A stretch of DNA of 64,000 nt. Source: Zhongshania sp. (GTDB lineage: Bacteria > Pseudomonadota > Gammaproteobacteria > Pseudomonadales > Spongiibacteraceae). Shown one piece after another: positions 2,808-26,525 of the stretch (the first letter of the stretch is position 1; the number at the start of each line of letters is the position of its first letter). The translations under genes were made by a program, and so were the position numbers. Under the pieces are notes generated by a model. The model was not told the DNA's origin. It saw nothing but the letters and a program-made list of their open reading frames with translations, and did not search any database. The stretch spans positions 1 to 64,000 of the forward strand of contig JAGPVP010000009.1 in the NCBI GenBank assembly GCA_018066965.1, given 5' to 3'.

Positions 2808-3641
2808 TTATATTTGTTGTTCTAGCCACGCGTGTATTTCGGCATAGATTTCGAACTTCTCAGGTTCTAGGAAAATCTCGTGGTAAAGACCAGGGTAAAT
2901 CTTAAGGGTCTTATCAGCCGAGGAGATACGGGCGTACAATTTTTCTGAGCCGGTGGGCGAGGCCATTTTATCGTCGCCACCATGCAGGATTAGCATGGGT
3001 AGGGTAATGCTTGCCGCATTTTTAAGTGCGTGGTCACCGGTACGTAAAATCTCACTAATTAGACGTGCCCGAATTTTGCCGGTGAATACCAGCGGATCAT
3101 TGCGGTAGGCTTCAACCACAGCGGGGTCGTGGCAAACATCATTAGCCTCTAGCTGCAGTACGGGAAGCTTGGGGAGTATTTTTGATAAACCCTGAAGAAA
3201 CGCTTTTTGTAGCGGGCTCACCACGTCGCCGGTTGCTAACGCCGCACCGGATAAAATACAGCCGGCGAGTTTTTGCTGATGTTCCAATAAGTACGCAGTT
3301 GAAATAACGCCGCCCATGCTGTGGCCGACTAAGAATAGTTTGCTGCCTGGATGCAGTGCGGCAACTTTGTCGCAGTATTGATCCAGTGTATTCAAAAAGT
3401 CGTCAAAGCGATTGATGTATCCGCGCAGGCCTTGAGAGTGACCGTGGCCCTCGTGATCTAGGGCGTAAACGGCGAAACCTTGTTCGGTAAAATAGTGAGC
3501 GATGTCGACGTAGCGATTACTGTGTTCGGCCAGTCCGTGCACCAGAATTAGCACGGCTTTGGGCTTGCCAGTGGGCTGCCAGTTCTGGGTGTAAATGCGA
3601 CAACCGGAGCGGCTGTGTAAAGTACCTTGTTGGTGTGTCAT
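2808..3641 (-). CDS. Alpha/beta hydrolase, monoacylglycerol-lipase-like
   Basis: Predicted serine hydrolase of the MGL/lysophospholipase (Hydrolase_4) family, likely releasing a fatty acid from monoacylglycerol or lysophospholipid. The 277 residues show the family signature in order: HGLAEHSNRY near 35-44 (oxyanion region), nucleophile elbow GHSMGG with Ser108, acid at D223/D224 in GGDDKMASP, and catalytic His254 in GLYHE. No signal peptide is seen, so it is probably cytosolic or lipid-body associated. Its ATG overlaps the stop of the upstream patatin gene in an ATGA, so the two are translationally coupled. Substrate preference is inferred from family and context. Confidence 0.88.
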   Translation of the reverse strand: MTHQQGTLHSRSGCRIYTQNWQPTGKPKAVLILVHGLAEHSNRYVDIAHYFTEQGFAVYALDHEGHGHSQGLRGYINRFDDFLNTLDQYCDKVAALHPGSKLFLVGHSMGGVISTAYLLEHQQKLAGCILSGAALATGDVVSPLQKAFLQGLSKILPKLPVLQLEANDVCHDPAVVEAYRNDPLVFTGKIRARLISEILRTGDHALKNAASITLPMLILHGGDDKMASPTGSEKLYARISSADKTLKIYPGLYHEIFLEPEKFEIYAEIHAWLEQQI

Positions 3642-5119
3642 TGCTTAGCTTCCATTGCGACATCGGTTCTAGTTTGCTGTGAATCGGCAATCAAGCGCAA
3701 CTCCATATCTCGTAAAATGCGATCTAGAACATGGCTGACGCTGGTTTGTAGGCGAATAGTTTCTATGTGCGGCCAGCAGGCGCGCTCACCATCGCGAATC
3801 ATGTCCATGACTTCTTCGGTGCTGCGGCCAGAGAGCAAACCAATGGGGCTGTGTAAACGGCGGGGCGGCAGAATATTTATGTCACCGGTATACGTTTGTG
3901 CTAACACTGAGCTGGTCATGTTTACTAGTTTACTAAGACTGGGGTTGAGGCCCACAGGTTTGGCAATAAGCTTGGTGCCTGCCAATAGCCATTCACGGGT
4001 GGTATTGCGCATGGCGTGCTTGATAATGCCCCAGCCATGTTGGTCTTTGGACTCGGACACAAAGGGCAGGGCAATAGGATTGGTTTGGCTAACAATAAAA
4101 TGATTAACGCCGTATAAGCGAGCCACACGTTTTATGGGCATGTCGTCGCTGACTGAGCCGTCAATCCATTTACGCGATGCCAGATAGGCTTGGCGCTCGC
4201 CGCGTTGATTTTTTGCCGCAAGGGTGACGGCCGGAAATGCGCCAGGAAATGCGCAGGAGGCCATGACCGCCTCGCGAATCATGACATTGGGTGAGGCCAC
4301 GGCATTGAGTAATCGCGAAGATTGGTGTTTTTCAGCGGGCGCTACCGAGACATTAATTTGCAAGCCGGTGAGGTGATATGCCTCTTGGAATGTTAGGTCG
4401 GGTATTAAACGCTCATAAAGCTGGGTTACCGCTTCGGGTGAAATCGCAGCGCGCTTAAATATATTTAGGCCGGCGAGTACGCCTGCTTCTTTTTCTACTT
4501 CAAAGCGGATGTACTCTGGCGCAAATATTTTTGCCAAGTCAGCCCGCGAGTGAGTGCCAACCAAGGCAGAAATTAAGGCACCGCCACTGGAGCCAGAAAT
4601 AATGGGCGGCAGTAATTGCTGTTCCCATAGCGCTTTAACAACACCAAGGTGAAAATATAAGAGGGTGCCAGAGCCGCTTAACATGAGCGCAGAACGGCCA
4701 AAGCAGTGGCTGGCGCGCTGGAAAAATTCAAATTTTTCCTCCAGCGTAATATCGTCAGCCTTGTCGCTGGCCAAGTGCAGTAGTGAGGAACCGATTTCCT
4801 CTATGTATTCAACAATGAGGCTTTTGGTGCCAAAGCGAGCTTTTTTGTACAGGCTGGAGCTGCCCATGCCACCCATATTGCCGTGAATGCCTTCGTTAAG
4901 GGCAAACAGCAGGCCTTGGTTGTCGCCACTGGCACGCATTCCTCGCAGTCGTTCTAGGCGGTGCCGAATCGATTTGAAATCATAGAGACCGCTGCGGTCG
5001 ACGTTCTTCCAGTAATCTAGGCCGGTCAGTTCGTCGCTGCGAATGGCGGCGGCTTTCCACTGTTCATAGCTCTCTGCTTTATCTATTTCTTGGTCGATTA
5101 CGTCTTGGCGTCGAGACAT
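3638..5119 (-). CDS. Patatin-like phospholipase with N-terminal DUF3336
   Basis: Predicted lipid acyl hydrolase of the bacterial relatives of yeast triacylglycerol lipases Tgl3/4/5: an N-terminal DUF3336-like helical region followed by a patatin domain. The Ser-Asp dyad is present: GSSGG with Ser178 (counted from the ATG at 5119) and DGS with Asp320; the glycine-rich SGSGTL oxyanion loop precedes the nucleophile. The longest frame begins 45 bases earlier at 5164 and would overlap the WS/DGAT gene by 41 bases. I chose 5119, just after that gene's TAA at 5124-5126, with a GGAG 11 bases upstream. It sits between a neutral-lipid synthase and a monoacylglycerol-lipase-like enzyme, suggesting triacylglycerol or wax mobilisation. 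Confidence 0.88.
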   Translation of the reverse strand: MSRRQDVIDQEIDKAESYEQWKAAAIRSDELTGLDYWKNVDRSGLYDFKSIRHRLERLRGMRASGDNQGLLFALNEGIHGNMGGMGSSSLYKKARFGTKSLIVEYIEEIGSSLLHLASDKADDITLEEKFEFFQRASHCFGRSALMLSGSGTLLYFHLGVVKALWEQQLLPPIISGSSGGALISALVGTHSRADLAKIFAPEYIRFEVEKEAGVLAGLNIFKRAAISPEAVTQLYERLIPDLTFQEAYHLTGLQINVSVAPAEKHQSSRLLNAVASPNVMIREAVMASCAFPGAFPAVTLAAKNQRGERQAYLASRKWIDGSVSDDMPIKRVARLYGVNHFIVSQTNPIALPFVSESKDQHGWGIIKHAMRNTTREWLLAGTKLIAKPVGLNPSLSKLVNMTSSVLAQTYTGDINILPPRRLHSPIGLLSGRSTEEVMDMIRDGERACWPHIETIRLQTSVSHVLDRILRDMELRLIADSQQTRTDVAMEAKQ

Positions 5120-5123
5120 TGTT

Positions 5124-6587
5124 TTATACGCTCCGGTCGGCGGCGGCAGGTGTAGTGTCTGCAAGTGCTTTCAATTCTTCAAAGGCCTTATTTAGGCAGG
5201 CAATGAAAAATGGCAGGTCGGGGATAATACTTTTGGCACTGGTAATACTAAACGTCATTTCACCATTGTAACTCAGGGTGACAATAAACAGGCCCATGGC
5301 GTCTGCCAGCGGCACCATGCCATATTGGTGGAGACATTTGGCGCCATTGATATACAGCGGAATTTGCGGGCCGGGTACGTTTGATACTGCCAGATTGCAG
5401 AGTTTGGCGGTGATGTTCGAGGCGAGAATAAGGCGACTAGCCACTGCCATGGTGGAGCCAGGCATGTGCTTGCTAAGGTCGGTCATCAAGCGTGCTGACA
5501 CACCCGACTTTGCCGCTTTGGACAATTGGGTGGCTGCGGTAATCGCGCTTAAGCGCGCTAGCGGGTTTGCGATATGGGTGTGTAGGTTTGCCGACATGGC
5601 CGTAATGTCATTGCCTTCTGTGCTGTCTTTGTTTGATTTTGGGGTGCGAGCATTAATGGGTACCCACGCAACTAAGGGCGCTTCCGGTAAGTCTTGGTGG
5701 GCAAGCAGATAGTGGTGGAGGCCGCCGCTACAAATGGCGAGCACAATGTCGTTTAGTTTGCTTCCCGGCACTAATGCTTGCAGAGCTTTTAATTCTGTAA
5801 GCGCAAAGCTGAGCGCGGCAAAACTTTTCTGTGGCGGCACGGGATGGTTAAACCGACTGTGGGCGACGGTATTGCCGTGCTTGGTATCGCCTTTGTTTAA
5901 TAGCGATTTAATGAGGCCGGGCGCAAGGCTCGGCACGCTGCGGGCGGCAGTGTTCATAAATAGCAGCGGTGAACGAATGTGGTTGTGTATGGCGTTGTAA
6001 AGCATTTTTCCTGTTGTGGGTTCTTCATCATGCACTGAAGGTTGGTGGCTAATGTCAGTGGCTGGGGTGCCGTTTGGGTCGATATCGCTTAGCGCTTGAA
6101 AGAATCGCATGGCCGATGTGCCATCAATCGCCACATGATGTATTTTCGCGATCAGCGCAAAGCTGCCTTTGGGGACGCCAGCGCATTCGGTATTGTCAAT
6201 GTTATTGAGATCTTTAACAATATGAATTTCCCATAATGGCCGGTTCATGTCCATGGGGCGGGAGTGAATGGCTGCGGCCTGCTCGCAGAGCTGCTGCCAG
6301 TTGCCGGGGGTGGCAAGGCCAACATTGAAAAGATGGCTGTCTAAGTCGAAATGGCCGTCGTCAATCCAGTAGGGGTAATCTAAATTTAGGGGTAGGCGCT
6401 TGAGCTTGCGAGTAAATATGGGGCTGACGTGCAGGCGACGTTGAACGTGTTCTTTAATCGATAAAAAACAGTCGAAGTCCTTGTCGTTAGCTGGTGGAGC
6501 ATACAGGCAGATCATAGTGGCATTCGACAGGTTGTTTTCAGTTTCCATGTATAAAAACTGCGAGTCCTGAGGTCTTAGCTGAGTCAT
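5124..6587 (-). CDS. Wax ester synthase/diacylglycerol acyltransferase (WS/DGAT), copy 1
   Basis: Acyl-CoA-dependent O-acyltransferase that esterifies fatty alcohols or diacylglycerol into storage wax esters or triacylglycerol at the inner membrane. The catalytic HHxxxDG motif is intact as HHVAIDG (150-156), and PLWE (117-120) and a later NVPGP segment also match the family. The length of 487 residues is normal. A second WS/DGAT lies at 34964-36418, so the organism has at least two. The neighbouring lipase and acyltransferase genes on the same strand point to a storage-lipid gene set. Confidence 0.93.
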   Translation of the reverse strand: MTQLRPQDSQFLYMETENNLSNATMICLYAPPANDKDFDCFLSIKEHVQRRLHVSPIFTRKLKRLPLNLDYPYWIDDGHFDLDSHLFNVGLATPGNWQQLCEQAAAIHSRPMDMNRPLWEIHIVKDLNNIDNTECAGVPKGSFALIAKIHHVAIDGTSAMRFFQALSDIDPNGTPATDISHQPSVHDEEPTTGKMLYNAIHNHIRSPLLFMNTAARSVPSLAPGLIKSLLNKGDTKHGNTVAHSRFNHPVPPQKSFAALSFALTELKALQALVPGSKLNDIVLAICSGGLHHYLLAHQDLPEAPLVAWVPINARTPKSNKDSTEGNDITAMSANLHTHIANPLARLSAITAATQLSKAAKSGVSARLMTDLSKHMPGSTMAVASRLILASNITAKLCNLAVSNVPGPQIPLYINGAKCLHQYGMVPLADAMGLFIVTLSYNGEMTFSITSAKSIIPDLPFFIACLNKAFEELKALADTTPAAADRSV

Positions 6588-6656
6588 GGCGCTGTTACTC
6601 TTATTGCTGATTATTGAGTTTGCTTGCTGCTGTATTTTTATCTGAAGTTCGGTGCT

Positions 6657-8180
6657 TTAGCTGTCACCTTTTGGCGCCGCTTTTTTTGCCCTTGGCTTTG
6701 GTGATGCGGCAAGTTTGGCCGCTGGTCTCGCTTTGGCAGGGGAAGCAGTTTTTGTGCCGTCTTGGTTTTCTGCGTCAAAACCGAGGGCGACCAAGAACTG
6801 ATTTCGGACCTCGTTGATGTGGGTATTTAAATCAGCTTTGCGCCAGGAGTCGGTATTGATGGCGGGCAATATCTCCACCGTTACCGTGGCTGGGTGAAAT
6901 AAGAAGTCGCCCTTGGCTTGCACGTCGGCGGTGTTGTGAATCACCACGGGTAGAATCGGCACGCCGGCATCAATTGCCAAATGAAAGGCGCCTTTTTTGA
7001 ATGGGCCCGGTTTCATTGAACTGGAACGGGTGCCTTCGGGGGCGATCGCGACACTGCGCCCTTCGATCTGCAAGGTGTCGACCAGCGGCTTCATGAGATC
7101 GATGGTGTTTTTGCTGTCTGAACGGTCGATTGGAATGATGCCCGCGAATTCGTAGGCATTGGCCAGCAGGCGAAATTTGCCGAACTCCTTTTTGCCGATC
7201 CCTGCAAAGTTGTCGCGCAGCAGCTTCATAATAATGAAACCATCGGCTTGGCTTTGATGATTGAATATCACTACCGCCGGGCCGCTGTTTGCCATGTTTT
7301 CTGGGTTGCGAACCTTTAGCTCCATTTGAATCAGCGCGCAGACAAAGTCTGAAAACGACGACACCATAAAGTTGCGACCAGTAATGCTCGAGCCGCTGAG
7401 CTTAGATACACCCAATCCCCCAAAATAGGCACTTATCAACGAGGTGTATACTCCGACACTGCGTAACGTTTTGCCGATACCGCGTGTACGGCTGCCAAAG
7501 GTTTGGCTTGACCAGCCATTGGTTTTAGCGATTTGGCGAAGGCGCTTATTGGGATTTAAAGGCCGGGGGTGGCCGACAATGTCGAGTAGCGGTAGGTCTT
7601 CATCGCTGTCTGAATAGAAGTAGCTTTGGCCTAAATCGATATTGTTTTGAGCAGCAAAGCTGCCCGCTGCCAGCACTTTGCCTTGGCCCCAGCACACCGG
7701 AGAAACGACCTCGCCGGTAAATACGCCATTCTCGACTTGGTATTGGGTGCATAGAATATGTTCGACGCCCAGCTCTTTCGCCGCATCGGCGAGCTGATAT
7801 TGGCTAGCAGACGACACAATCACGATCTGGTGGCCCTGCGCACGGTGTTTTTCAATAAGTGCGCGGGCTTCGGGGTATATCAGCTTAAAGATATTCTTTT
7901 CGTAAACCTGCCGGCCAAGGTCAGCAAAATCGCTTTCTAGCATGCCTTTTAGGTGAGAAGTGCCAATCGTCATCAGCTCGTCGGCATTAATAAGCTTGGC
8001 GCGGTAGTTGACCATGCCTAAAATCACTTCGGTGATTTGATTGCGCCCGAGCAATTTGCGCTTTACCTGCTCCTTTAATAGATAGTAAGCCGAGTAGCCG
8101 GCAATCAGGGTGCCGTCAAAATCGAAAAAGGCGGCGGTCTTGTTGCTATCAAGGGCTGGAGTAGCTGCTTTATTTTGCAT
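6657..8180 (-). CDS. HAD-IB phosphatase fused to 1-acylglycerol-3-phosphate acyltransferase
   Basis: Two-domain enzyme of 507 residues. The N-terminal HAD-IB hydrolase carries DFDGTL (about 20-25) and a DSDEDLPLL motif near 192, typical of phosphoserine-phosphatase-like enzymes. The C-terminal PlsC-type domain has HX4D in NHQSQAD (H308, D313) and EGTRS at 382-386. Similar fusions are known in proteobacteria and mycobacteria and may couple lysophosphatidate acylation with a dephosphorylation step. The last 35 or so residues form a basic Ala/Lys/Pro-rich tail resembling histone H1. The longest frame starts at 8216, but only the ATG at 8180 has a plausible AGCGGAC ribosome-binding site. It lies 69 bases upstream of the WS/DGAT gene, probably in the same operon. 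Confidence 0.9.
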   Translation of the reverse strand: MQNKAATPALDSNKTAAFFDFDGTLIAGYSAYYLLKEQVKRKLLGRNQITEVILGMVNYRAKLINADELMTIGTSHLKGMLESDFADLGRQVYEKNIFKLIYPEARALIEKHRAQGHQIVIVSSASQYQLADAAKELGVEHILCTQYQVENGVFTGEVVSPVCWGQGKVLAAGSFAAQNNIDLGQSYFYSDSDEDLPLLDIVGHPRPLNPNKRLRQIAKTNGWSSQTFGSRTRGIGKTLRSVGVYTSLISAYFGGLGVSKLSGSSITGRNFMVSSFSDFVCALIQMELKVRNPENMANSGPAVVIFNHQSQADGFIIMKLLRDNFAGIGKKEFGKFRLLANAYEFAGIIPIDRSDSKNTIDLMKPLVDTLQIEGRSVAIAPEGTRSSSMKPGPFKKGAFHLAIDAGVPILPVVIHNTADVQAKGDFLFHPATVTVEILPAINTDSWRKADLNTHINEVRNQFLVALGFDAENQDGTKTASPAKARPAAKLAASPKPRAKKAAPKGDS

Positions 8181-8420
8181 ATTTTGTCCGCTGGGCAGTG
8201 ATAATAATAAGTACATAGGCGAAATGTAACCAAGCTTACTAAATTGTGCATCGGATCAGGGTGCGAGTCCAGTGCTTTCCTTAGCGCGACTCGGTGTTAA
8301 TTAAGGCGGGCTTTGGGGGAATATTTACTATTTAGTGCTTGTGCGATGGTGCTAGGCAGATGACGATTGCGGTTGAATCCTTTATTGTACGCCCCTTTAT
8401 ATTGTTGAGAGCATAAACCA

Positions 8421-9584
8421 ATGGATGACTTCGCTGAGATCCGGCCCTATCACGACGATGAAGTCGCGCCGGTTTTAGCCAAGTTGCTGGTCGACCCTGA
8501 GTTGCTGAATGTGGTCGCAAATCTGCGCATTCCCAAACTCAATCGCTATCTGCCTTGGTTAGTTCGTCCTTTAATAGCGTGGTATTTGCGCCGCGAATTC
8601 AAGGGCGTCAACAATGTGGCGGATTTTCAGTTGATCATTAAGCGTTATATGGACGCGATGATCGAAGATCATACCTGCAGTTTTAATGTTTCGGGCTTAG
8701 ATGTATTAGATTCGAATGCTGCGTATTTATTCATTAGCAACCATCGCGACATCGCCCTTGACCCAGCCTTTGTAAATTATTCTTTGTATCATCATGAGCG
8801 CAGTACGGTGCGTATTGCGATTGGTGACAACTTACTTTCCAAGCCTTTCGCCGCAGACCTGATGCGTCTTAATAAAAGCTTTATTGTGCGCCGTTCAGCC
8901 CGTGGGCCTCGGCAGATGCTGGCGGCGTTTCGGCAATTAGCGAACTATATTCGTTTTTCATTGCTGGAAGAGCGCAGCTCAATTTGGATTGCCCAGCGCG
9001 AAGGGCGTGCCAAAGACGGCAACGATGCCACCGAGGCGGCGGTAATAAAGATGATTGGTATGGCCCAGCAAAAGCCGGACGAGAGTTTTTCTGACTACAT
9101 CAACAAGCTCAATATTGTGCCGGTATCCATTTCTTATGAATGGGACCCGCTAGACGCGGCCAAGGCCCAAGAATTGGTGAGAGTTGAACGTGATGGTGCG
9201 TATTTAAAGGCCGAGCACGAAGATTTAAAAAGTATCGCCGTGGGTGTGCTTGGCAATAAGGGTGATGTACATGTGAGCTTTGGCGCGCCCTTAAAAGGTG
9301 AATTCGCCGATGCGGCGATGGTGGCGGCAATTTTAGACGAGGCGATTATTGATCAGTATCGTCTGCATGCCAGCAACGTGCTGGCGTATATGCGTCTTTA
9401 TAATAATGAAAGCTGGCGCGAATTGCGGGTGCCAAACATCACCGACGCTGACGTGGCAGATTTTGAACAGCGTTTCGCTAAAATCCCTCAGGAATTTCGT
9501 GTTAAGGCGATGGAGATATACGCCAATCCGGTGCGCAATCAATTGCGCAGCCGAGATTTGCGGGCAATAGACGAGGCGGTGTAG
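8421..9584 (+). CDS. PlsC-like glycerolipid acyltransferase
   Basis: A 387-residue acyltransferase of the lysophosphatidate-acyltransferase superfamily. Motif I reads NHRDIALD (107-114), where the Asp is six residues after His108 instead of the usual five unless D110 plays its part. FIVRRSARGPRQ (near 154) is block II, QREGRAKDG (near 193) block III, and IVPVSISYEWDP block IV. There is no convincing membrane span. It starts divergently from the HAD/PlsC fusion, and dinG begins on the base after its stop. The exact acceptor is unknown; membership of the superfamily is clear. Confidence 0.85.
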   Translation: MDDFAEIRPYHDDEVAPVLAKLLVDPELLNVVANLRIPKLNRYLPWLVRPLIAWYLRREFKGVNNVADFQLIIKRYMDAMIEDHTCSFNVSGLDVLDSNAAYLFISNHRDIALDPAFVNYSLYHHERSTVRIAIGDNLLSKPFAADLMRLNKSFIVRRSARGPRQMLAAFRQLANYIRFSLLEERSSIWIAQREGRAKDGNDATEAAVIKMIGMAQQKPDESFSDYINKLNIVPVSISYEWDPLDAAKAQELVRVERDGAYLKAEHEDLKSIAVGVLGNKGDVHVSFGAPLKGEFADAAMVAAILDEAIIDQYRLHASNVLAYMRLYNNESWRELRVPNITDADVADFEQRFAKIPQEFRVKAMEIYANPVRNQLRSRDLRAIDEAV

Positions 9585-22785: not shown

Positions 22786-23101
22786 TCTTGGTAGTTGTGT
22801 GGCTTTAAACCCACGACTGTGATTTTTGTGTCTATAGTAGAAACAGTGCTCGTTGCTTGTCGATTTTTATGCCGGCCAGTGCAAGCTAGTAAATGCCTGC
22901 TTATACCTAGTAATTACTTTGTGTGAGCCAAGTTTAAGGTCATTGTGATGAGTATTGAGAAAATTACGCGCTAGCTAGGTGGAATACACAATATTGCTGT
23001 GCGGCGTAGCTTGTTATAAAGGACACTTTGGCTTGTATAGAATGCGAACGAATGACCATGTCGATGGTTAGTTGGATAGAACTCAGCGATTGGATGATGA
23101 A
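22786..23101. other. Intergenic region before the ethylene-receptor-like kinase
   Basis: About 316 bases with no supported gene. An in-frame TTG at 23072 would extend the kinase by ten residues. I see no clear terminator or operator here. Confidence 0.4.
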
Positions 23102-24334
23102 ATGTCGGATGTTATGAATTTTTTGCTTGGCCCCGAAATGCCGCCGCACGGGCATTGTTATTTGTGGAATGAAGATTTGGTGCGCTTGCACGTCACTAGC
23201 GACGTGCTAATCACCTTGTCGTATTTCACTATTCCAATCGCCTTGGTGTATTTGGTACGTAAGCGCGAAGATTTAAAATTCAACTTTATGTTTGTGATGT
23301 TCGCGATATTTATTTTTGCCTGCGGCGCGACTCATCTTATTAATATTTTCAATGTGTGGCATGGCGCTTATTGGCTGAGTGGCATTGTGAAATTGATCAC
23401 GGCGATTGCATCGGTTGGAACGGCTATCGCAGTGTGGCCTTTAATTCCCAAGGCCTTGGCGATTCCGAGTAATCAGCAATTACTCGCCCTAAACCAGCAG
23501 CTGCGCGATGAGGTGGCCGACAATATTAAGCAGCGGGCAGAGGTCGAGCGTCTGTCTCGTGATTTACGTCAGCTGGTTGATGAACGAACCGAAGAGCTGG
23601 CTGAAACGCGGGTAATGAAAACGCTGCTTGAGCAGAACCACGACTCGCTTGAACGCTCGAATACAGCCCTGGAACAATATGCCTTGGTGATGGCCCGTGA
23701 TATTAAAGAACCGCTGCGGTCTATTGCGGTATTTGGCGAGTTACTGGCAGACCGCTTAAGCGATCGCTTGGCAGAGGACGAGGCGAAGTGGCTGGCAATG
23801 ATCGTGAAGTCAGCCAAGCGCAGCACCTCGATGATTGATGACTTACATGAGTACTCGGTACTGCAGCCGAGCAGTGACATTGAGCCGTCGTCCTTAGAAG
23901 ATGCCCTTGAGCAAGCCTTGGTGGCCAATGCCGCAGAGTTGAAAAAGCACGGCGTAAGCTTGCAGCGTGAAACATTGGCAATGGTCGGAGTACCTAAAGT
24001 GCCGTTGGCGCAATTGCTGGGACAACTGTTGAACAATGCGATTAAGTTTAGCCGAAATCAGGCAGCGCCAAAAATAGATATTGGCCCGTTGAATGATGGC
24101 GAAAGTGGCGAGACTGGGTTTTATATTCGCGATAACGGCATTGGTTTTGCGCGACAGTACGGCAACCGTATTTTTGGCGTGTTTGAGCGTTTGCACACTG
24201 AACAGGAATACGAAGGCAACGGCATTGGCTTGGCTATTTGCCGACGCATTCTTGATGAGTATCAGGGCCGCGTTGTAGTAGTGAGTGAAGAGGGCGCGGG
24301 AGCAGAGTTTCGTATTTACTTGCCAGCCGTATAG
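23102..24334 (+). CDS. Ethylene-receptor-type sensor with degenerate histidine kinase
   Basis: Membrane sensor of 410 residues. The N-terminal three-span domain (about 30-115) matches plant ETR1 and cyanobacterial ethylene-binding domains. The copper/ethylene residues of ETR1 (Asp25, Tyr32, Pro36, Cys65, His69) correspond to D34, Y41, P45, C74 and H78 here with a constant offset of nine. A coiled-coil linker follows (about 125-185). The dimerisation domain reads MARDIKEPLRS where the usual box is ASHDLQEPLR, so the phospho-acceptor His is Arg199 (codon CGT at 23696). The HATPase domain keeps LLNNAIKF, DNGIGF and GNGIGLAI, so ATP binding may remain. The start at 23102 is chosen by family alignment. 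Ligand and output are inference. Confidence 0.87.
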   Translation: MSDVMNFLLGPEMPPHGHCYLWNEDLVRLHVTSDVLITLSYFTIPIALVYLVRKREDLKFNFMFVMFAIFIFACGATHLINIFNVWHGAYWLSGIVKLITAIASVGTAIAVWPLIPKALAIPSNQQLLALNQQLRDEVADNIKQRAEVERLSRDLRQLVDERTEELAETRVMKTLLEQNHDSLERSNTALEQYALVMARDIKEPLRSIAVFGELLADRLSDRLAEDEAKWLAMIVKSAKRSTSMIDDLHEYSVLQPSSDIEPSSLEDALEQALVANAAELKKHGVSLQRETLAMVGVPKVPLAQLLGQLLNNAIKFSRNQAAPKIDIGPLNDGESGETGFYIRDNGIGFARQYGNRIFGVFERLHTEQEYEGNGIGLAICRRILDEYQGRVVVVSEEGAGAEFRIYLPAV

Positions 24335-24399: not shown

Positions 24400-24657
24400 C
24401 TAGTTTTGAGGGCCGTTTTCGCTGGGTGCTGACTGACTAATTCGTGTAAATATCATGTCTGCCATTGCTGCGTCGCCGCGCCATATTTGCTGAGCGATGG
24501 CGGCACCAGTTTGGCGGCTGCGATCAAGGTGACGGTTAAAGCGCCGGCAATGGCGACAAATCATCAGGTGCAATCGAACCTCAACGCGCTTCCAGCCGGT
24601 ATGCTGGTGGTCGATATGGTCGCTGGCAAGATCGGTAAATTGCTTACAATTTAGCAT
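24400..24657 (-). CDS. Zinc-finger anti-sigma factor, short
   Basis: Protein of 85 residues with a His-x3-Cys-x2-Cys (HLMICRHC) zinc-finger motif of anti-sigma factors, preceded by LNCKQFTDLASDHID, the typical start of zf-HC2 proteins. There is no membrane span, so it should act in the cytosol. Its start overlaps the ECF sigma gene by seven bases, the standard sigma/anti-sigma arrangement, and it presumably holds that sigma inactive. The metal-binding residues suggest it might sense metal or oxidation directly; this is inference. Confidence 0.8.
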   Translation of the reverse strand: MLNCKQFTDLASDHIDHQHTGWKRVEVRLHLMICRHCRRFNRHLDRSRQTGAAIAQQIWRGDAAMADMIFTRISQSAPSENGPQN

Positions 24658-25277
24658 TCTCCGGTCTCCTGATAGTGATTGATGATTTTCATAAGCTGCA
24701 ATCGCGCACGGTGCAGAATCACCCTAACATTGGCCTCGGTCAGCGAGAGAATCTCGGCTATTTCTTCCAAGCTGCTCTGCTCAACATCGCGCAGTAAAAA
24801 TACTGCTTTCTGATTTTCTGGCAATACCGTTAAAGTGTGTTCAATGCAGTGTCTTAATTGATCCTCCTGAAGCATCAGCTCCGGTGTATTTATATCCCAA
24901 TGCGATGGTGGGTTTACCCAGTGGCCGCTGCCATTAAAACTAGTTGGGTCGACCTCAGGTCGCACTTCGTCAATATCGCCAAAACTGCTGTGGCGTTTTT
25001 CGCGTCGCAGCCTCGATTTGGCCTCGTTGCTCACAATCTGAATCATCCACGTCGACAGACTGGAGCGGCCTTCAAACTTCCCAATGGCCTTGTAGATAGA
25101 ACTCCAGGCTTCTTGGGTAACATCTTCGGCGAATACATCGCCGGCGATGGCTCGCGCTACGATCAGCAACTTGGGGTGATAAGCGCTGATAAGCTGTTTA
25201 AACGCATTGTTATCACCCGCTTTGAGGCGGGTGATAAGTTCCTGATCGTCAACGGGCAGTGACACGGGCAAATCCAA
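24651..25277 (-). CDS. ECF-type RNA polymerase sigma factor
   Basis: Sigma-70 family protein of 208 residues with region 2 (LKAGDNNAFKQLISAYHPKL to STWMIQIVSNEAKSRLRR) and region 4 (LPENQKAVFLLRDVEQ to LTEANVRVILHRARLQL), joined by an acidic, Pro/Ser-rich linker of about 45 residues. The frame has no early ATG; a TTG at 25277 is the longest start and is uncertain. The anti-sigma gene overlaps its end. HvfX lies 79 bases upstream on the same strand, so hvfX, sigma and anti-sigma probably form one unit. The two identical promoter-like elements between hvfX and hvfA are its likely targets. Confidence 0.9.
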   Translation of the reverse strand: MDLPVSLPVDDQELITRLKAGDNNAFKQLISAYHPKLLIVARAIAGDVFAEDVTQEAWSSIYKAIGKFEGRSSLSTWMIQIVSNEAKSRLRREKRHSSFGDIDEVRPEVDPTSFNGSGHWVNPPSHWDINTPELMLQEDQLRHCIEHTLTVLPENQKAVFLLRDVEQSSLEEIAEILSLTEANVRVILHRARLQLMKIINHYQETGEC

Positions 25278-25356
25278 ACCATGATTAAGCCCCTAGTGTC
25301 TCTGATCCTCCTGCCTACAGGCAACAACTCACTGCATTAGCGTTTGAAATTGTTGC

Positions 25357-25968
25357 TTATTTTGCGCCGGGCAGGGCCCGCCCCAGCCAGTAATCGACGC
25401 TGACAAAACGCCCGCCGCCCATCACCATTAATGCCAGCAGCATAATTAAGTAAGTGACAGCAAACTCAATACCGTTATTCAGTACCACAAAGTTGCCGCT
25501 AGACGTGAGCCAGTCGTAATTGCCATGGGTTTCCAATAAAGACCGGGCTGCAGACAGTTTTTCAACCGAGTCCGCCACGCGTTCATTGGCAAATGGCGCG
25601 CTGGCATCGGCAATGGCTTGCCAGCCGTTATTCCAATGCACCGTTGTGGCGGCGACAATCATGGTCATGGCGAGTGGAATCGATATCCAGCGAGTTGCAA
25701 AGCCCAGTAGTAATAGCGCTGCGCCACCAACCTCCGCTGCCGTTGCCATAAATGCCATCACATAAGGGAAGGGTAGTCCAAGCCCCCAGTCGCTATTGCC
25801 AAACCACTCGGCGGTGTCAGCAAAATGCATCATCTTACTGCTGCCAGCCATCCAAAATACCGGTACCAAGTACAGGCGAAGCGCCAGTGACGGTAAGCCG
25901 TCAAGAGGCATTGCCAGTCGCCCTATGGCATTTTGCAGGCTGCGAAGTTTGCTGAAAAAATCTACCAT
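25357..25968 (-). CDS. hvfX: HvfX-like DoxX family membrane protein
   Basis: Inner-membrane protein of 203 residues with four predicted spans and the DoxX signature (LRLYLVPVFWMAGSSKM, then AEVGGAALLLLGF). The inserted loop with VHWNNGWQAIA and the NNGIEFAVTYLIMLLALM segment match the HvfX subgroup that accompanies copper-binding RiPP precursors. HvfX is thought to act in maturation or membrane handling of these peptides. The ATG has GGAG eight bases upstream. It is divergent from the hvfA-like precursor gene across a 232-base region with a bidirectional promoter. No DUF692 (HvfB) or DUF2063 (HvfC) gene accompanies it here. Confidence 0.82.
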   Translation of the reverse strand: MVDFFSKLRSLQNAIGRLAMPLDGLPSLALRLYLVPVFWMAGSSKMMHFADTAEWFGNSDWGLGLPFPYVMAFMATAAEVGGAALLLLGFATRWISIPLAMTMIVAATTVHWNNGWQAIADASAPFANERVADSVEKLSAARSLLETHGNYDWLTSSGNFVVLNNGIEFAVTYLIMLLALMVMGGGRFVSVDYWLGRALPGAK

Positions 25969-26043
25969 GGGGTTTACTCCGTATAGTGATCACGATTGCG
26001 TGACTGTCGACTTGATGACAGTAATCGTGGTGCATGTTTATGC

Positions 26044-26075
26044 TTATAAGACGTACGGCGAGAAATCTTGTTACA
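26044..26075 (-). promoter_or_regulatory. ECF-type promoter candidate for hvfX
   Basis: Read on the minus strand: TGTAACA (26075-26069), 16 bases, then GTCTTATA (26052-26045). The same elements with the same spacing occur on the plus strand towards hvfA. TGTAAC-type -35 boxes are known for some ECF sigma factors; assignment to the neighbouring sigma gene is inference. Confidence 0.55.
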
Positions 26076-26108
26076 TGTGTTGGGGAATAAATTTATTTTC
26101 TCTGGTGT

Positions 26109-26139
26109 TGTAACAGTAGCTAACCTTGTTTCTCTTATA
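26109..26139 (+). promoter_or_regulatory. ECF-type promoter candidate for hvfA
   Basis: TGTAACA (26109-26115), 16 bases, then CTCTTATA (26132-26139), about 60 bases before the hvfA start. It has the same architecture as the divergent hvfX element, and the two -35 boxes form an inverted repeat. Confidence 0.55.
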
Positions 26140-26200
26140 GGTAGAGTCGCAATGTTGCGGCCAATTTGATCTTTTAACTTATTACTAAGGTGATGACACA

Positions 26201-26467
26201 ATGAAAAATACTGCGATGACGGCCCTCGGTGCGGCCATGCTAGCCTCTTCAATGGCCTCAGTTGCCGTTGCAGATACCAACCCTTTTGCAGCAAAAGTAA
26301 TGAGCAGCGGTTATCAGCTAGCTGATTACGCGAAAGACGCGGAAGGCAAATGTGGCGAAGCAAAATGCGGCGCAGAGAAAAAAGCAGCTGAAGCTAAGTG
26401 CGGCGCTGACAAGGCTGCTAAAGAAGGTAAGTGCGGCGAGGCCAAATGCGGCGCTGACAAGAAGTAA
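26201..26467 (+). CDS. hvfA: HvfA-like copper-binding RiPP precursor (Cys-repeat peptide)
   Basis: Small exported protein of 88 residues. A signal peptide ends near AVA24-D25, the mature start is DTNPFAAKVMSSGYQLA as in HvfA proteins, and the tail carries five Lys-Cys-Gly units (Cys51, 56, 67, 78, 83) within EGKCG or EAKCG blocks spaced by Ala/Lys/Glu-rich linkers. In characterised systems the Cys of EGKCG is converted to oxazolone/thioamide by HvfB/HvfC and the product binds copper in the periplasm. Only two of the five units are strict EGKCG. AAGGTG precedes the ATG and a strong terminator follows, so it is a single-gene transcript. The modifying enzymes are not encoded in this window. Confidence 0.82.
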   Translation: MKNTAMTALGAAMLASSMASVAVADTNPFAAKVMSSGYQLADYAKDAEGKCGEAKCGAEKKAAEAKCGADKAAKEGKCGEAKCGADKK

Positions 26468-26488
26468 TAGCTAGACCCCGTTAGGCTT

Positions 26489-26525
26489 AGCCTCTTTGCC
26501 CTCGCAAAGAGGCTGAATTTCTCTT
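26489..26525 (+). terminator. Rho-independent terminator after hvfA
   Basis: A perfect ten-base stem (AGCCTCTTTG/CAAAGAGGCT, 26489-26498 and 26505-26514) with a six-base loop is followed by the T-rich GAATTTCTCTTT. It begins 21 bases after the hvfA stop. Confidence 0.8.

Follow-up and report, generated by a model that had tools for sequence, protein, structure and literature searches.

An orphan HvfA gene beside an ECF sigma factor in Zhongshania: the probable half of a split Hvf copper-peptide pathway

The DNA considered here is a stretch of 64,000 nucleotides from Zhongshania sp. (GenBank assembly GCA_018066965.1, contig JAGPVP010000009.1), referred to below as the window. Its positions 24400-26525 hold hvfA2, an orphan gene for an HvfA-type precursor of a ribosomally synthesized and post-translationally modified peptide (RiPP), on the plus strand. 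Divergent from it, all on the minus strand, are hvfX, a gene for an extracytoplasmic function (ECF) sigma factor and an anti-sigma gene. The features of the locus are the following.

26201..26467, plus strand: hvfA2, orphan HvfA-type precursor of 88 amino acids (model NF050137 over cut-off, leader as in enzyme-linked HvfA, genome census)
26487..26516, plus strand: terminator-like hairpin of 13 pairs with a weak T tail, 3' of hvfA2 (fold z = -4.5)
26109..26138, plus strand: predicted ECF promoter of hvfA2, TGTAACA-N17-TCTTAT (footprinted across species)
26046..26075, minus strand: predicted ECF promoter of hvfX-sigma-anti-sigma, TGTAACA-N17-TCTTAT (footprinted across species)
25357..25968, minus strand: hvfX, an HvfX equivalog of the DoxX family (NCBIfam HvfX, 236.8 bits against 80), heading the divergent operon
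24651..25277, minus strand: ECF sigma factor gene (Pfam Sigma70_r2 and Sigma70_r4_2)
24400..24657, minus strand: gene of a small zinc-type anti-sigma (ZAS), overlapping the sigma gene (Pfam zf-HC2, antisigmaE)

Profile matches were obtained for all four genes, in agreement with the identities that an earlier note on this DNA had read from the letters. The hvfA2 product carries a signal peptide, followed by an NPFAAK...SGYQ leader and five KCG units, and it is placed in the HvfA family by the NCBIfam model KCGExKCG_twice (NF050137; 48.7 bits, cut-off 19.5). The sigma factor shows regions 2 and 4, and its gene is overlapped by that of a small anti-sigma bearing the HX3CX2C motif, as in ECF sigma factors paired with a ZAS. 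Residues C4, H30, C34 and C37 of the anti-sigma are invariant in 15 sequences. The signs of a bufferin locus of the Buf1/NrsF type are missing, the Pfam scan of the four genes returning zf-HC2 and no DUF2282; no genome-wide search for DUF2282 was made. NrsF is presumably the same as the DUF1109 anti-sigma of Caulobacter.

The window contains no MNIO (DUF692) or DUF2063 gene and so no contiguous Hvf cluster. The earlier note had observed the same and had asked for a whole-genome search. In the genome of this organism, searches with MNIO (PF05114) and DUF2063 (PF09836) gave one match each, both on contig C121, and the idea that the enzymes are absent from the genome was thereby ruled out. On C121, hvfA1-hvfB-hvfC lie between hrpA and vacJ, the latter two named from a reading of the proteins. 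Both enzymes exceed the NCBIfam equivalog cut-offs (HvfB 427.5 against 360, HvfC 307.2 against 142), and with HvfX in the window and on contig C77 the genome holds a complete Hvf set. The assembly comprises 3.66 Mb in 127 contigs and is 84% complete with 6% contamination. Absences from it are therefore weak alone, and that part of the argument is borne by 17 relatives of the genus, which are listed as 99-100% complete. Despite the listed contamination, C121 probably belongs to this genome, since the hrpA-hvf neighbourhood recurs in the relatives.

The second HvfX gene, hvfX2, encodes a longer protein of 272 amino acids on C77 (L116:6654-7472); it belongs to no Hvf cluster and lacks the promoter element described below. 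Two HvfX matches over the cut-off occur in 16 of 18 genomes of the genus. The neighbours of hvfX2 resemble prfA-prmC-moeB according to their proteins, for which no profile was run.

The separation of the two loci is conserved. The sample consisted of 18 Zhongshania/Spongiibacter genomes, namely that of the window (G000) and the relatives G001-G017. In 17 of them hvfBC adjoins hrpA, and in 16 hvfX-sigma-anti-sigma sits apart from hvfBC. Among these 16, a divergent hvfA2 is found at the sigma locus in 14, and an EamA gene and a histidine kinase are both nearby in 13. The recurrence of this arrangement across the genus indicates more than chance. When the whole genomes were searched with an alignment of 25 HvfA sequences, HvfA was found in all 18. 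It is present at both loci in ten (G000, G002, G004, G005, G007, G008, G010, G015-G017) and only beside the enzymes in three (G001, G003, G009). In G006 it belongs to a one-piece sigma-anti-sigma-hvfABCX cluster (L102), which replaces the split system; one-piece clusters of this kind were also seen at two Pseudomonas loci. In the remaining four species, G011-G014, the orphan is the only HvfA, and hvfBC is kept without an adjacent precursor. Around their hvfBC genes no open reading frame (ORF) of 35-250 amino acids with at least five Cys bears KCG. Their 10-kb hvfBC loci contain one or two scattered KCG triplets in six frames, compared with seven in a 9 kb control from C121, and 45 to 160 bases separate hrpA from hvfB. 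The genome of G014 consists of one contig.

The two loci share a predicted promoter element. A first pattern, TGTAAC-N18-TCTTAT, matched only the hvfA2 and hvfX sites in the genome of the window, and gave 10 matches in the 18 genomes, seven of them in the gap between hvfA2 and hvfX. It was dropped as too narrow, hvfABC being missed even with spacers of 16-20. The strict pattern TGTAACA-N17-TCT was used instead. In the genome of the window it occurs before hvfX, hvfA2, hvfABC (on C121, 239 bases before hvfA1), MsrP, a YghU-type oxidoreductase, a DUF1223 gene and the gene of one small hydrophobic protein with no Pfam match; three further sites are inside ORFs. A sigma-70-like sequence was also read by eye before hvfA1. 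At the rate of this genome, a chance match is expected in about 5 of 10,000 upstream windows of 350 bases.

In the loci fetched from relatives (763 kb), 44 strict matches were counted against 1.45 expected for random bases. They stand before hvfX (13), hvfA2 (11), hvf(A)BC of the genus (13), hvf(A)BC of a sister genus (3), hvfX of G042 (1), the sigma gene of G009 (1) and elsewhere (2), so that 42 of the 44 precede hvf genes or that sigma gene. By genome, the strict element is found before hvfX in 14 of the 16 that have the locus (not in G003 and G011), before hvfA2 in 12 of the 14 that have this gene (not in G011 and G014), and before hvf(A)BC in 14 of 17. The first of these counts makes the operon of the sigma factor itself, headed by hvfX, a candidate for autoregulation. 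The sister genus has the element before hvf(A)BC in three of three genomes, and there the sigma/anti-sigma pair occupies a different site again. G009, which lacks hvfX and hvfA2 and has kept sigma-anti-sigma beside EamA, has it before the sigma gene and before hvfABC.

The precursors of the two loci also share a leader, in which N27, P28, F29, A31, G37 and Y38 are invariant over 25 sequences. The Haemophilus HvfA signal peptide has been proposed to double as leader, and HvfA without the signal sequence is poorly modified (PMC13419390). The modification, given in the earlier note as oxazolone/thioamide, is now described as 5-thiooxazole (PMC13419390, PMC13097082). A survey of MNIO peptides reported precursor genes without an adjacent enzyme and left open whether their products are modified in trans or unmodified (PMC12452194). 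It might accordingly be supposed that the orphan HvfA2, with no enzyme adjoining it, is never modified and that its plain Cys bind metal, like a small secreted metallothionein. This was one of two alternatives offered by the earlier note, and we consider it unlikely: the NPFxA...GY leader is common to enzyme-linked HvfA, HvfA2 is the sole HvfA of G011-G014, which have kept HvfBC, and the same element precedes hvfBC in G011 and G014. The other alternative in that note, enzymes acting in trans from elsewhere, is supported by HvfB and HvfC on C121 and by the four orphan-only species. Since their only HvfA is the orphan while hvfBC is kept, modification of HvfA2 in trans by HvfBC is the simplest reading of the sequences.

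The element reaches beyond hvf genes. The YghU-type target in the genome of the window is a glutathione-dependent disulfide oxidoreductase. Twenty further sites were picked by eye from the genus-wide matches, not at random, for likeness to the sites of this genome or for a CGTCT or CATCT -10, and 9 of them stand before MsrP, 4 before DUF1223 and 2 before YghU genes. With the genome of the window included, the element stands before the MsrP gene in 10 of 18 genomes, before DUF1223 in five or more and before YghU in three or more, all of these being lower bounds. A wider regulon of this kind may respond to oxidant or thiol stress, or perhaps to copper. The G006 sigma factor is 41% identical to that of the window, and the MsrP gene of G006 still carries the element.

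Several known systems resemble the locus in part. In Haemophilus influenzae, hvfABCX encodes an HvfA with signal peptide and KCG repeats and the same HvfB, HvfC and HvfX families, but as one four-gene operon (PMC13419390). Here, in contrast, one locus carries a precursor and HvfX and another carries HvfB and HvfC, mostly with a second precursor, and the same ECF element occurs at both. Caulobacter sigmaF is a single ECF factor that controls DUF692/DUF2063 operons at two loci as well as YedY (MsrP) through a GTAAC -35; it differs in its DUF1109 anti-sigma, its DUF2282 precursors, its CGAA -10 and in that each precursor has its own enzymes (PMC3511200). The Neisseria sigmaE-NMB2145 system (operon NMB2140-2145) has a ZAS in which Cys4 and His30x3Cys34x2Cys37 are placed identically, an operon that includes a DoxX-like gene, co-regulated MsrA/MsrB and a CGTCTAA -10, whereas its -35 is another, its spacing is 12-13 nt and its polycistronic operon is unsplit (PMC2893595). 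Sinorhizobium RpoE7 and Bradyrhizobium EcfF (ECF16) share the GTAAC -35; RpoE7 controls a DUF692-DUF2063 operon and EcfF methionine sulfoxide reductases (PMC6180224, PMC3420878). They differ in a CG-type -10 (the proposal for the group is CGAA), EcfF in its membrane anti-sigma OsrA, and RpoE7 in that the DUF692 and DUF2063 genes it controls adjoin each other (PMC6180224, PMC3420878). The bulbicupramide cluster of Microbulbifer (mmrABC) has an EGKCG precursor, an MNIO and a DUF2063 protein, and its product is a copper chelator with four hydrogens lost per Cys. It is one cluster, and the sections of its description considered here mention no sigma factor (PMC12538549). Haemophilus RpoE2 regulates msrAB (PMC7907618), and the occurrence of the element before MsrP fits Caulobacter sigmaF, Neisseria sigmaE and Haemophilus RpoE2.

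A number of observations weigh against reading the locus as one half of a split pathway under a single sigma factor. HvfA2 reaches 39.4 with the HvfA equivalog model NF050188, whose cut-off is 95, so that the HvfA-likeness claimed in the earlier note stands for the family model and fails for the equivalog. The enzyme-linked HvfA1 of the same genome (33.1) and the one-piece HvfA of G006 (76.9) also fall short of this cut-off, and the model thus looks narrower than the family. The promoter pattern was read by eye from the two window sites, and its -10 was relaxed to TCT, at fixed spacing, after the region upstream of hvfABC had been viewed. It was thereby derived partly from sequences that were then counted; its definition made no use of the MsrP, YghU and DUF1223 sites or of loci outside the family. 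The 10 strict matches in the 3.66 Mb of the window's genome compare with 5 for the reversed control, and the 119 across the genus with 82 (summed rows). With control counts so near the pattern counts, many single sites are background, and the weight rests on location and recurrence. Five of the 20 picked sites have no recognised target. No strict element is present at hvf(A)BC in G001, G012 and G013, and the hvfX and hvfA2 sites of G011, which has near matches only, the hvfX site of G003 and the hvfA2 site of G014 deviate. The region upstream of the G006 sigma gene contains neither GTAAC nor GGAAC, and 16 fetched hvfX2 loci, tried as further regulon sites, have no element. In G012 and G013 the hvfX site is inside a called ORF that starts about 50 codons earlier than those of the relatives, and this start seems to be called too far upstream. 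MNIO gives one match per genome of the genus except in G013, which has two, the second divergent. Expression of Neisseria sigmaE is unchanged by oxidative stimuli, contrary to a simple oxidant model (PMC2893595). The 3' end of hrpA extends into the -35 at 13 of the 14 hvf(A)BC sites in the genus, and part of the conservation may therefore be coding. Lastly, the sigma locus lacks hvfA2 in G001 and G003.

The overlap with hrpA would suit the proposal of the earlier note that the locus is a self-contained metal-response switch; in that case the sigma factor would answer copper and serve this locus only, and the element before hvfABC would be an accident of hrpA coding. The total of the reversed-pattern control, not far under that of the pattern, agrees with this proposal, as does the copper chelator made by a related cluster (PMC12538549). 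It does not explain the intergenic hvf(A)BC sites of G014 and G018-G020, nor the element before hvfABC on another contig, before MsrP in ten of the 18 genomes and before the YghU and DUF1223 genes, nor the retention of the sigma pair in G009 without adjacent hvfX or hvfA2. A purely local copper switch is improbable on these grounds.

The missing hvfA2 genes of G001 and G003, together with the loss of both hvfA2 and hvfX in G009, could also mark HvfA2 and HvfX as the decaying copy of an Hvf cluster left beside an unrelated sigma gene, and the HvfA2 of the window, with 88 amino acids and five Cys, is shorter than those of its relatives. Decay accords poorly, however, with an HvfX 64-88% identical to that of the window in 13 relatives, with intact reading frames, with promoters footprinted across species and with species that have no HvfA other than the orphan, and we regard it as very improbable.

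The best explanation is that the locus supplies the regulation and a precursor for an Hvf (oxazolin-type, 5-thiooxazole) copper-RiPP pathway split between two places, a reading to which, mechanism included, we assign a probability of roughly five in six. The locus looks like part of a thiol/methionine-oxidation regulon. In the proposed mechanism the anti-sigma would hold the ECF sigma factor through its zinc (Cys/His) site, and disturbance of the site, probably by oxidant or thiol stress and perhaps by copper, would free the sigma factor. The latter would then transcribe its own operon, hvfX-sigma-anti-sigma, from the TGTAACA-N17-TCT promoter in positive feedback. It would also drive the divergent hvfA2, the distant hvfABC between hrpA and vacJ, and the repair genes for MsrP, the YghU-type glutathione oxidoreductase and DUF1223. 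The shared HvfB and HvfC would modify HvfA2 in trans; HvfA2 would be exported by Sec and bind copper in the envelope as a thiooxazole peptide, with a putative role for HvfX in the pathway, and MsrP and the thiol enzymes would repair oxidised proteins. For G011-G014 we lean, with some reserve, towards a more specific proposal: precursor and maturases are distant and linked only by the shared ECF promoter code, and the copper peptide is an arm of an envelope oxidant-repair regulon (MsrP, glutathione/thiol enzymes) that would be triggered by oxidant or thiol damage to the ZAS anti-sigma and not by copper as such.

Related arrangements are found outside the genus. The form TGTAACG-N17-TCT stands before hvfA in the two Pseudomonas one-piece clusters. 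Outside the family, the strict or the TGTAACG form precedes hvfX in Cellvibrio (two loci), one of two Gilvimarinus loci, Simiduia and Agitococcus. Eighty HvfX loci from named genomes (L167-L246) were labelled for neighbours within bases 3500-9500. Four of them (L167, L168, L170 and L172) are the same contigs as G004, G016, G015 and G012, and 8 of the 17 strict matches there are repeats. Six of the 80 have hvfX with sigma-anti-sigma and no MNIO label: L184, L195, L204, L210, L213 and L228, from Simiduia, two Gilvimarinus, two Cellvibrio and a metagenome-assembled genome. In five of these six, hvfX is preceded by the element or by its TGTAACG variant. No precursor-like ORF is near them, the rest of those genomes not having been searched; they are possible further split Hvf systems.

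Another 27 of the 80 loci have no hvfB, hvfC, hvfA, sigma or anti-sigma label, and HvfX may act outside Hvf clusters. The label range misses genes in the short loci L205, L215, L218, L236 and L245, of which L218 bears a KCG precursor.

Next to the locus, the window encodes a histidine kinase (23072-24334, plus strand) with an ethylene-receptor-like N-terminal domain (PF25487 ETR1_N, 130.9 bits) that contains CGATHL, which we take to be the Cu(I)/ethylene-binding motif of plant ETR1. The kinase gene lies next to the anti-sigma gene in convergent orientation, and the two remain neighbours in 13 of the 16 loci of the relatives.

The components and the idea of trans modification are already known or anticipated (PMC12452194). 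Among the titles and abstract openings searched, no split Hvf pathway under a ZAS-controlled sigma factor is described. New with respect to this literature are the conserved split, the species in which only the split form exists and the element that ties the halves. The genus offers a natural test of trans modification, as four of its species keep one HvfA gene with HvfBC far away. The shared element provides a cheap way to seek split pathways in other genomes. Through it the peptide is also connected with the repair of methionine sulfoxide and thiols, a connection relevant to the function of the peptide.

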